From positions 124,001 to 188,000 of the forward strand of contig NZ_SMBZ01000001.1 of the NCBI RefSeq assembly GCF_004342685.1: a DNA stretch of 64,000 nucleotides. Reading direction: 5' to 3'. The notes below the pieces were generated by a model that was not told the origin of the DNA, did no database searches, and saw only the letters and a program-made list of their open reading frames with translations. Origin of the DNA: Sphingobacterium alimentarium. GTDB taxonomy: Bacteria > Bacteroidota > Bacteroidia > Sphingobacteriales > Sphingobacteriaceae. How positions within the stretch are numbered: position 1 is the stretch's first letter; every line of letters starts with the position of its first letter. Below, piece by piece: positions 32,963 to 35,294 of the stretch. The position numbers and the translations under genes are program-made.

Positions 32963-33729
32963 ATGAAATCATTCAGCTACTTAGCATTAAGCTTAGCCGT
33001 CCTTCCTCTACTGACGGGTTGCGAAACTATGAGTCAGATAGCAACCACTTTACCACAAGGTAACCCAGGCACGACAACATCCAGCACAGAAGCCAACACG
33101 ACTATTACGCAAGCGGAAGCCGTGACTGGCATCAAGCAAGCACTCAATAATGGTTTGCAAAATAGTATAAAAACTTTATCGGCAACAAACGGCTTCTATG
33201 GAGATGCGCTCGTAAAGTATTGATGCCGGAAGAAGCGCGCCGAGTAGAACAAACACTGCGCTCAGCAGGTATGGGAAAATTAGTTGATAATTTCATATTA
33301 AGTCTCAACAGAGCTGCTGAATCAGCCGTCAAAGAGGCTGCTCCTGTATTTGTAAATTCGCTTTCGCAAATGACCGTTACGGATGCCTTCAATATTCTAT
33401 TAGGCACGCAACAAGATGCCGCTACGCAATTTTTCAAACGTACTACTTCAGCGACTTTAACAGATAAATTTAGCCCTATAGTAGCTACGGCCCTAGGCAA
33501 ACATAACGTCAATACCTATTGGACACAGCTTACCACAGCCTATAATTCACTTCCATTATCTTCGAATAAAGTGCAAACAGATTTGAATGCCTATGTCACG
33601 CAGAAAGCGATACAAGGCCTTTTTGTCAAAGTAGCCGATGAAGAGTTGAAAATCAGACAGAATATCGGAGGATCCCGAAATACCAATATCTTGCAATCCG
33701 TATTTGGATGGGTTGACAAGCAAAAATAA
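32963..33729 (+). pseudogene. DUF4197 lipoprotein gene split by a frameshift
   Basis: The first part (32963-33223) has a lipoprotein signal with lipobox LLTGC (Cys20), and then a sequence ending GFYGDALVKY. The rest of the DUF4197 domain (PEEARRVEQTLR onward, to QSVFGWVDKQK) continues in the next frame from about 33217 to 33729. One base missing near 33214-33219, after the AAAG, would restore a protein of about 255 residues, normal for the family. It may be a real mutation or a sequencing error. The family is periplasmic, of unknown role. A -7 element TATTTTTG is at 32936-32943. Confidence 0.75.
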
Positions 33730-33957
33730 AAAAATGGGGAAAGCAATCTGAGGGCACTGAAAAACTATCCACTAAAAAAGGGCTTATGAATTTTTATACT
33801 CATAAGCCCTTATCCTTTGTTTATTTTAAAGCATTTATCAATAAATCTTCAAATAAGAGATTCTCAGTGGGTTAAATATGTGCTTTTTCCCTTTTTTTGA
33901 TACTCAAATTTTTGAAGAGGACTTTTTCAGTGCCCTTAGCAATCTTTCCCCATTTTT
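33730..33957. terminator. Rho-independent terminator split by an inserted element
   Basis: AAAAATGGGGAAAG (33730-33743) and CTTTCCCCATTTTT (33944-33957) are perfect 14-base complements, now 200 bases apart. Removing the 188-bp insert and one copy of its 8-bp target duplication restores a continuous stem of 14 bp with loop CAAT. It would have ended the DUF4197 transcript. Confidence 0.8.
33750..33937. mobile_element. 188-bp MITE-like non-autonomous element
   Basis: Terminal inverted repeats GAGGGCACTGAAAAA (33750-33764) and TTTTTCAGTGCCCTT (33923-33937) match at 14 of 15 positions and continue with weaker similarity. The element is flanked by the direct repeat AGCAATCT at 33742-33749 and 33938-33945, an 8-bp target duplication. 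It encodes nothing, but includes a 12-bp hairpin AAGGGCTTATGA/TCATAAGCCCTT (33778-33811). The transposase family that would mobilise it is not in the window and I cannot assign it. Confidence 0.75.
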
Positions 33958-34005
33958 CTTTTGCGTTCTTGACAATAAATATACCTTAAAACCTGCTTTC
34001 TTTGC

Positions 34006-34013
34006 TACATTTG
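34006..34013 (+). promoter_or_regulatory. -7 promoter element for pepT
   Basis: TACATTTG fits TAnnTTTG and lies 18 bases before the ATG of the peptidase gene. No clear -33 TTTG is seen at normal distance. Confidence 0.45.
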
Positions 34014-34031
34014 TATTAAAATAACGTCAAA

Positions 34032-35294
34032 ATGGATCATTCTATTATAAATAATCTATCGAATCTTTCTGTGGCAGACCGTTTTATGCGTTATGTGCAG
34101 ATAGATACACAATCGGACGCAAGTTCAGTAACCTTTCCATCGACAGTTAAGCAACTCAATCTAAGTAAACTGCTGGTAGAAGAATTGAAAGAAATGGGTG
34201 CGCAGGATGTAGAGTTGGATGAAAATGGCTATGTATATGCCACCATTCCGTCTAACACCAACAAAAATGTTCCTGTCATCTGCTTTTGTTCGCATGTCGA
34301 TACTTCTCCGGATTGCTCTGGCACGAATGTAAAACCAATTGTACACGCCAATTACCAAGGCCAAGACCTTGTATTGCCTGATGACAATGCAGTAGTTATT
34401 CGTTTTGGGGAGCATAAAGATTTGGCGGAGCAAATAGGAAACGACATCATCACCGCCTCAGGAACGACTTTATTGGGCGCGGATGACAAGGCCGGTGTGG
34501 CGGAAATCATGGAAGCAGCCAAATTATTGATAGCCCATCCTGAAATCAAACATGGTGACATCAAAATATTATTTACGCCAGATGAAGAAATTGGCCGTGG
34601 TGTAGATTTTGTGAATTTAGAGCGCTTAGGAGCCCAATTTGCATACACGATGGACGGTGAAAAGGCTGGCACCATTGAAGATGAAACATTTTCGGCAGAT
34701 GCTGCAACCATTACGATTCATGGTGTATCCGTACACCCAGGATTCGCTAAAGGCAAAATGCAATCGGCTATCAAAATAGCTTCAAAAATTATTGACGCTT
34801 TGCCTACAAACAGACTCTCACCTGAGAGTACTTCAGGAAAAGAAGGTTTTGTGCATCCCACAAATGTATCGGGTACCGTAGAAAAAGCAATTATAGGATT
34901 TATTGTTCGCGATCATGATACCGCAAATTTGGCGAAACATGAAGCGGAGCTCGAGTCACTTGCAAAAGATATCGTGGCTCAATATCCCGGCGCGACCTAT
35001 ACATTTGAGACCAAAGAGCAATACCGCAATATGAAAGAAGTATTGGATCAATATCCTCAAATTATGGCTATTGGCTTGGAAGCTATCGAACGTGCAGGAA
35101 TTAAAGCAGAACGTCGCAGCATCCGTGGTGGTACCGATGGTTCTAGATTATCATTCATGGGATTGCCGTGTCCGAATGTGTTTGCTGGTGGTCATGCATT
35201 CCACGGTAAAATGGAATGGGTCAGCAAGCAGGATATGGAGAAAGCAGTAAAAACAATTTTGCATATTGCTACTCTTTGGGAAGAAAAAGCTTAA
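34032..35294 (+). CDS. pepT: peptidase T (aminotripeptidase)
   Basis: A 420-residue cytosolic metallopeptidase of family M20B that removes the N-terminal residue from tripeptides. Two-zinc-site residues are visible in FCSHVDTSPD (His, Asp), the catalytic GADDKAGVAEIMEA, the general-base FTPDEEIGRG (Glu-Glu) and the late GGHAFHG His. The dimerisation domain is marked by ITIHGVSVHPGFAKGKM. Length and motif order are as in E. coli PepT. It appears monocistronic. Confidence 0.95.
   Translation: MDHSIINNLSNLSVADRFMRYVQIDTQSDASSVTFPSTVKQLNLSKLLVEELKEMGAQDVELDENGYVYATIPSNTNKNVPVICFCSHVDTSPDCSGTNVKPIVHANYQGQDLVLPDDNAVVIRFGEHKDLAEQIGNDIITASGTTLLGADDKAGVAEIMEAAKLLIAHPEIKHGDIKILFTPDEEIGRGVDFVNLERLGAQFAYTMDGEKAGTIEDETFSADAATITIHGVSVHPGFAKGKMQSAIKIASKIIDALPTNRLSPESTSGKEGFVHPTNVSGTVEKAIIGFIVRDHDTANLAKHEAELESLAKDIVAQYPGATYTFETKEQYRNMKEVLDQYPQIMAIGLEAIERAGIKAERRSIRGGTDGSRLSFMGLPCPNVFAGGHAFHGKMEWVSKQDMEKAVKTILHIATLWEEKA

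Follow-up and report, generated by a model that had tools for sequence, protein, structure and literature searches.

A miniature element in the loop of a terminator hairpin in Sphingobacterium alimentarium and its likely mobiliser, an IS1182-family insertion sequence

How does a 188-bp element come to lie inside the loop of a Rho-independent terminator, with both arms of the stem kept on either side of it? The question is raised by a locus in a 64,000-nucleotide stretch, called the window below, of the Sphingobacterium alimentarium genome (3.58 Mb in 107 contigs). The original prediction, made from the letters alone, was of an 8-bp target duplication, a 188-bp element within a terminator loop and a perfect 14-bp rebuilt stem, and all three are exact by sequence: with one copy of AGCAATCT removed, the arms pair at 14/14 positions around the loop CAAT. 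The element itself was said to have terminal repeats matching at 14 of 15 positions, a hairpin of its own and no gene. This is borne out, as the inner arms (33778-33789 and 33800-33811) form 12/12 pairs and no open reading frame of at least 60 aa lies inside 33750-33937. The rebuilt site has a hairpin score of 16.5, and scores of at least 15 were found at 6 of 3974 random window positions. In folding, the ends of the element pair and bridge the outer stem, which is why the 14-bp stem of the window copy can still form; the split terminator might thus still act. The coordinates are collected in Table 1.

Table 1. Features of the split terminator, the inserted element and the neighbouring genes, in window positions.
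Feature	Position	Strand	Remarks
Miniature element (MITE of an IS1182-family IS)	33750..33937	+	188 bp; 12 full and 1 diverged genome copies
Host terminator, left arm AAAAATGGGGAAAG	33730..33743	+	sequence
Target site duplication, left copy AGCAATCT, spans terminator loop CAAT	33742..33749	+	sequence
Target site duplication, right copy AGCAATCT	33938..33945	+	sequence
Host terminator, right arm and T-tract CTTTCCCCATTTTT	33944..33957	+	sequence; simple hairpins at orthologous loci
Left terminal inverted repeat GAGGGCACTGAAAAA	33750..33764	+	common to autonomous IS
Right terminal inverted repeat TTTTTCAGTGCCCTT	33923..33937	-	14/15 match to left
Inner hairpin of MITE, 12-bp stem, 10-nt loop	33778..33811	-	terminator-like on minus strand, stem then TTTTTT; covariation-supported
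DUF4197 gene, 3' part, upstream of split terminator	33220..33729	+	ORF and domain search
M20-family peptidase gene, downstream	34032..35294	+	ORF and domain search

The DUF4197 gene upstream (32963-33729) is broken into two frames near 33215-33225. It is one continuous frame in three of the four relatives examined (G009, G010 and G014), and the split is either a recent frameshift or a sequence error.

Is the insertion a solitary event? The genome carries 12 full-length copies of the element, the window copy included, that are 94-100% identical to it, and one diverged copy. All 12 full copies are flanked by an exact duplication, of 8 bp at ten sites and of 9 bp at the other two, and removal of one duplication copy rebuilds a hairpin with a score of at least 9 in every case; at most of the sites an A-tract lies on one side and a T-tract on the opposite one. 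The diverged copy sits in a similar site and has a duplication with one mismatch. Short, devoid of a transposase gene, dispersed in multiple copies and bordered by target duplications, the element has the characteristics of a MITE. Matches were also found in 14 of 92 other genomes of the genus that were searched, and a search of a plasmid collection with the element gave no match. Other copies were to be looked for, and their sites examined for hairpins; a location in hairpins holds for this genome, where all 13 copies are in rebuilt hairpins, but among MITE sites with a duplication in other species a strong hairpin is present in 6/11 and missing from 5/11. The window copy is nearer to two copies in a related genome (L085 and L099 in G009, 98%) than to the other 11 full copies of its own genome (94-97%), which hints at transfer or an old polymorphism.

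What moves the element? An element with the same ends was to be sought, and it exists as an IS1182-family insertion sequence (IS) of about 1.76 kb with matching duplication and targets. The 188-bp MITE and the IS have common AGGGCACTGAAAAA ends and occur in the same genome and genus. The longer elements with these ends in the window's genome measure 1738 and 1762 bp, together with a 703-bp deletion derivative; the transposase frames of both full-length copies in this draft assembly are interrupted. Copies of about 1.76 kb with intact transposases of 482-486 aa are found in three relatives (G017, G027 and G085), where a single transposase open reading frame lies between the terminal inverted repeats (486 aa in a G027 copy, 482 aa in one G085 and one G017 copy). 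The transposase scores 363.6 and 368 bits against NF033551 (NCBIfam IS1182; cut-off 270), and its DDE_Tnp_1_6, DDE_Tnp_1 and DUF772 domains exceed the Pfam cut-offs; a search of solved structures with the transposase gave no match at E 0.01. From these ends, duplications and targets, the IS1182-family IS is the likely mobiliser of the MITE. In the genome of the window (G000), all three longer relatives with both ends (L072, L073 and L074, at C31, C36 and C28) have interrupted or truncated transposase frames, and for this reason the MITE family of this genome may no longer have a driver. Two further fragments are present in G000, at C22 and C79.

The IS group reaches well beyond the genus. Its conserved ends read GAGG[GCT][CT]ACTGAAAAA. 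A scan of named genomes retained the best 80 of 520 related stretches, and in 69 of these 80 loci both ends were found with the pattern AGG[GCT][CT]ACTGAAAA at up to two substitutions, 11 being without one recognisable end. The genera among the best 80 are Sphingobacterium, Flavobacterium, Chryseobacterium, Mucilaginibacter, Pedobacter and Pontibacter; Bacteroides fragilis, other Bacteroidota, one Clostridium MAG and one Oceanobacillus are also included. A relative is encoded on eight viral contigs, and three of the six viral loci examined have similar ends flanked by an 8- or 9-bp duplication. In Flavobacterium sp. NK2020 (L158; CP051546, 1888-3664), the start of a second element follows the 8-bp duplication of the IS, and two tandem copies seem to share one duplication. 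In three genomes (G002, G009 and G031), many of the matches to the ends fall in roughly the first 250 bases of a contig, on several contigs; these assemblies are probably broken at IS copies, so that the number of copies counted in them is a lower bound.

Where do these elements land? Target sites were gathered from a genus set (76 loci, of which 61 yielded 63 rows and 15 yielded none, having either no end pair in the size classes or flanks repeating another locus) and from the named set (69 rows). Removal of five sites present in both sets reduced the 132 to 127 distinct rows, of which 97 have an exact duplication of 7-9 bp (70 of 8 bp, 26 of 9 bp and 1 of 7 bp); these are separate insertions and not separate lineages, many coming from the same few genomes. 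The 97 do not include L074, a locus whose duplication measures 6 bp under the fixed-end rule. Among the 29 rows without a duplication, two are spurious end pairings (L123 at 222 bp and L120 at 1735 bp); the 27 real ones have no exact duplication of at least 5 bp, and both tracts are present in 23 of them. At one site without a duplication, L129 in G092, the left flank resembles the reverse complement of the L130 site of the same genome, a likeness that hints that some duplications are missing because copies have recombined.

A strong gapless hairpin is centred within 5 bp at 77 of the 97 duplicated sites, compared with 36 of 3974 positions picked at random in the window and 14 of 1940 shuffled sites. 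In 39 of the 77, hairpin and duplication have the same centre; in none of the 77 do the two centres lie more than 2 bp apart. The proportion is much the same at MITE-size (18/23) and IS-size (59/74) insertions. The targeting of hairpins proposed for the window element is hence supported, but in a refined form, as the target is usually a pair of A- and T-tracts at a fixed spacing and not a hairpin alone.

When the sites are aligned on the duplication centre, A makes up 89-96% at -15 to -13 and T 92-95% at +13 to +16. A site usually has an A-tract some 12 bp to one side of the centre and a T-tract at a similar distance on the other. Both tracts are present at 71/77 target hairpins and at 31/64 background terminator-like hairpins, each of which has at least one tract by construction. 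The distance from dyad to tract has a standard deviation of 1.8 bp at targets and 3.65 bp in the background (Levene p 3e-11). Both observations indicate that the transposase does not take just any terminator. No strong gapless hairpin is present at 20 of the 97 sites, five of them MITEs in other species, and the tracts are instructive here: both are found at 8-15 bp in 13 of the 20 and at least one in 19, whereas among 4555 noncoding positions without a hairpin both occur at 113 (p 2e-16). By folding, L208 and L209, two of the 20, have bulged hairpins; the remaining 18 have fold z values above -2 relative to shuffles, three of them between -1.9 and -2, and both tracts are present in 11 of these 18. 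Conversely, given A4-N20-25-T4, a hairpin is present in 62/75 targets and in 33/119 noncoding controls, which rest on a crude ORF mask; this enrichment could partly reflect selection for harmless places. Tracts and hairpin both count in target choice, and the tract geometry is taken, with moderate confidence, as the primary signal, because the tracts persist where the hairpin is absent.

The elements also bring hairpins with them. In an alignment of 18 MITE sequences across species, the inner hairpin shows pairing in 95.3% of cells, and changes on both sides occur in 5 of 12 pairs, against 0.4 expected; none of 500 shuffles reaches this number, and the best slid control has 2 pairs. Three diverged sequences account for the five both-sides changes, and one of them (L123) for three, so that the covariation support, while good, is not deep. 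The same structure was also obtained by a separate structure prediction, and a terminator scan flags the hairpin as terminator-like on the minus strand, with TTTTTT after the stem. In the full-length elements, a strong hairpin lies between the left end and the transposase gene in 68 of 69 named ISs, compared with 17 of 345 shuffled left ends. Another follows the transposase gene in 54 of 69, a count without a shuffle control, and several of these have no T-tract. Counting distinct left ends only, 45/46 have the hairpin and all 45 of those a T-tract, and the stem sequences differ among genera. The terminator scan of L109 did not flag its left-end hairpin, a miss that is likely due to an interrupted stem. 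The T-tract is at least 14 bp from the dyad in 39 of 45 distinct left-end hairpins but in 14 of 75 target hairpins (p 1e-13). It is possible, from this correlation, that the left-end hairpins of an element fall outside its own preferred target geometry.

How might these parts fit together? It is highly probable that the window element is a MITE moved in trans by an IS1182-family transposase into symmetric, tract-flanked sites, with duplication of the loop, and that hairpins carried by the elements compensate for the split. The mobilisation of 33750-33937 in trans by this DDE transposase is deduced from the common ends, duplication and targets. The target read by the transposase complex would have two-fold symmetry, with A- and T-tracts on opposite sides of the centre, each some 12 bp from it, and usually with palindromic arms between the tracts, as in a bidirectional intrinsic terminator. 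A staggered cut of 8 or 9 bp centred on the dyad would account for what the sequences show, duplication of the loop and in most cases of up to three closing pairs as well. The host terminator is split, while a full-length IS brings a terminator-like hairpin just within its left end, frequently with a second hairpin beyond the transposase gene, and the MITE brings a single conserved one. The hairpin structures suggest that these act as terminators and that the elements re-supply terminators at the sites they split. Landing at gene 3' ends with a re-supplied terminator would make an insertion nearly neutral for the host, and the same terminator could shield the transposase gene from read-through. 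Such landing sites, together with the elements' own hairpins, may let the elements spread with little damage to the host. Group IIC introns likewise are mobile elements that use intrinsic terminators as safe landing sites; they differ in being retroelements, with no transposase and no duplication.

Could structure alone be the signal? What the transposase recognises might, as has been proposed for IS1272, be only the extruded cruciform or hairpin, with the tracts present because terminators have them. The high share of sites with a strong centred hairpin (77/97) speaks for this, and the model published for IS1272 depends on structure, with duplication of the loop alone drawn as an alternative route (PMC5678879). 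The cut geometry is also of interest here. In most cases the loop is duplicated together with up to three closing pairs; a few long loops are at least as long as the duplication. Within the genus set, the 9-bp duplications are all at hairpins with an odd loop (8/8), and the 8-bp ones are at 23 even and 11 odd loops (p 0.0006). In the named set alone, however, the association is not significant (p 0.23), and pooling gives p 0.007, so that a dependence of duplication length on loop parity is only suggestive; if real, both strands would be cut at equivalent positions relative to the dyad. The reading by structure alone also sits poorly with the hairpin-poor sites, most of which keep both tracts (13/20, or 11/18, all with z above -2, without the bulged L208 and L209), and with dyad-to-tract spacing that is tighter at targets than in other terminator-like hairpins. 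It is judged unlikely, and insertion guided by the tracts together with symmetry is preferred.

Might there be no target preference, the elements inserting anywhere and surviving under selection only at gene ends? Seven of the 13 copies in this genome lie between convergent open reading frames and six between tandem ones; none lies between divergent genes or within an open reading frame of at least 90 aa. All 13 thus adjoin at least one gene 3' end, where an insertion is least harmful, as such selection would have it. Selection alone, however, would not centre 77 of 97 sites within 2 bp of a hairpin dyad, when a window position chosen at random has only about a 1% chance of such a hairpin within 5 bp, and this explanation is very improbable beside a targeted insertion.

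Relatives offer a view of the locus without the element. The upstream gene was matched in 62 other genomes, and in the best 14 of these the element is absent from the 110-120 bases displayed after that gene. Six (G008, G009, G010, G014, G031 and G088, with G008 and G010 identical here) have a short, simple terminator-like hairpin, judged by eye and free of the element, in the interval from the 3' end of the same DUF4197 gene to conserved sequence further downstream; the other eight have different downstream contexts or no obvious hairpin. Orthologues with the same 230-base structure as an ancestral state, the finding that would have spoken against an insertion, were therefore not seen in these 14. 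A reading of the structure as an ancestral hairpin element, such as an RNA gene, is scarcely credible even though the whole region folds very stably (MFE -82 kcal/mol, z -9.95 by folding against shuffles), given the 14 loci without it, the six simple hairpins in its place, the 12 full copies with differing flanks and differing exact duplications, and no Rfam family at gathering score (six matches with E up to 1 in a search of 33500-34100 all fell far short of the gathering scores and were treated as chance).

Insertion into terminators by an IS1182 relative has been published before. IS1272 of Staphylococcus, a member of the family, targets inverted repeats, several of them confirmed terminators, with no primary sequence consensus, and its insertion is described as leaving no target duplication, with loss of part or all of the stem-loop (PMC4923244, PMC5678879). 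A route that duplicates only the loop is drawn as possible in PMC5678879, and the present elements look like that route. They resemble IS1272 and TnSha1 in the IS1182-family transposase and in the insertion into inverted repeats or terminators (here 77 of 97 duplicated sites). They differ in that both arms are kept and split at the loop, with an 8-9 bp duplication, that A- and T-tracts at fixed spacing are part of the target and that a MITE family is present. Replacement of a deleted stem-loop without duplication, the IS1272 type, is not what was found, as 97 of 127 rows have an exact 7-9 bp duplication. Loop duplication with retention of the stem is thus a new variant of a known behaviour. 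Some IS1182 members are said to target palindromes (PMC4923244 and PMC5678879, citing Siguier et al.), and relatives are described as acting with or without target duplication or deletion, on target sequence or structure (PMC12056078). The members described in PMC3281130 (ISPse1) and PMC3196728 (ISCaa15) have 4-bp duplications, whereas those of the present group are mostly 8-9 bp. In a large survey, IS1182 is among the families over-represented between convergent genes (PMC9208149), which fits the gene-end targets seen here.

Other elements show partial likeness. BrickBuilt, a MITE of Porphyromonas gingivalis (PMC4596501), is also from the Bacteroidota and intergenic, with predicted terminators around 10 of 19 copies, but in the example described there the terminator is beside the element and undisrupted, and its duplications vary in length. 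Insertion sequences that target REPs or other palindromes (PMC1525189; IS1111 in Coxiella, PMC5896051) also enter extragenic palindromes, but theirs are described as repeated sequence families. REP-type targeting was rejected for the present group, whose targets are without a common stem sequence and have only tract geometry and symmetry in common. SPRITE, BOX, RUP and other bacterial MITEs are short intergenic repeats with stable hairpins, some terminator-like, and insertion into terminator loops is not reported for them in the portions of PMC10969869 consulted. The open-licence literature, where an absence weighs little, gave nothing recognised that deals with these ends, with a duplication inside a terminator loop or with the tract rule; a text search for the end sequence returned only titles on liver, cytochrome P450 or nuclear receptor.

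What might the finding mean? A broader proposal is that an IS1182 group distributed across the Bacteroidota lives by terminator exchange: it would read the symmetric tracts that bidirectional terminators carry, split the hairpin in its loop, re-supply terminators and avoid insertion into itself by the longer arms of its own hairpins. This is put forward tentatively, as an idea with somewhat less in its favour than against it. The narrower rule is clear and testable, a DDE transposase that would find harmless sites by symmetry and A/T tracts, with no common sequence. Insertion sites of this kind could help to map intrinsic terminators, or serve as a tool for integration at safe sites. Terminators that are split, and perhaps re-supplied, by mobile DNA may also alter read-through between neighbouring genes.
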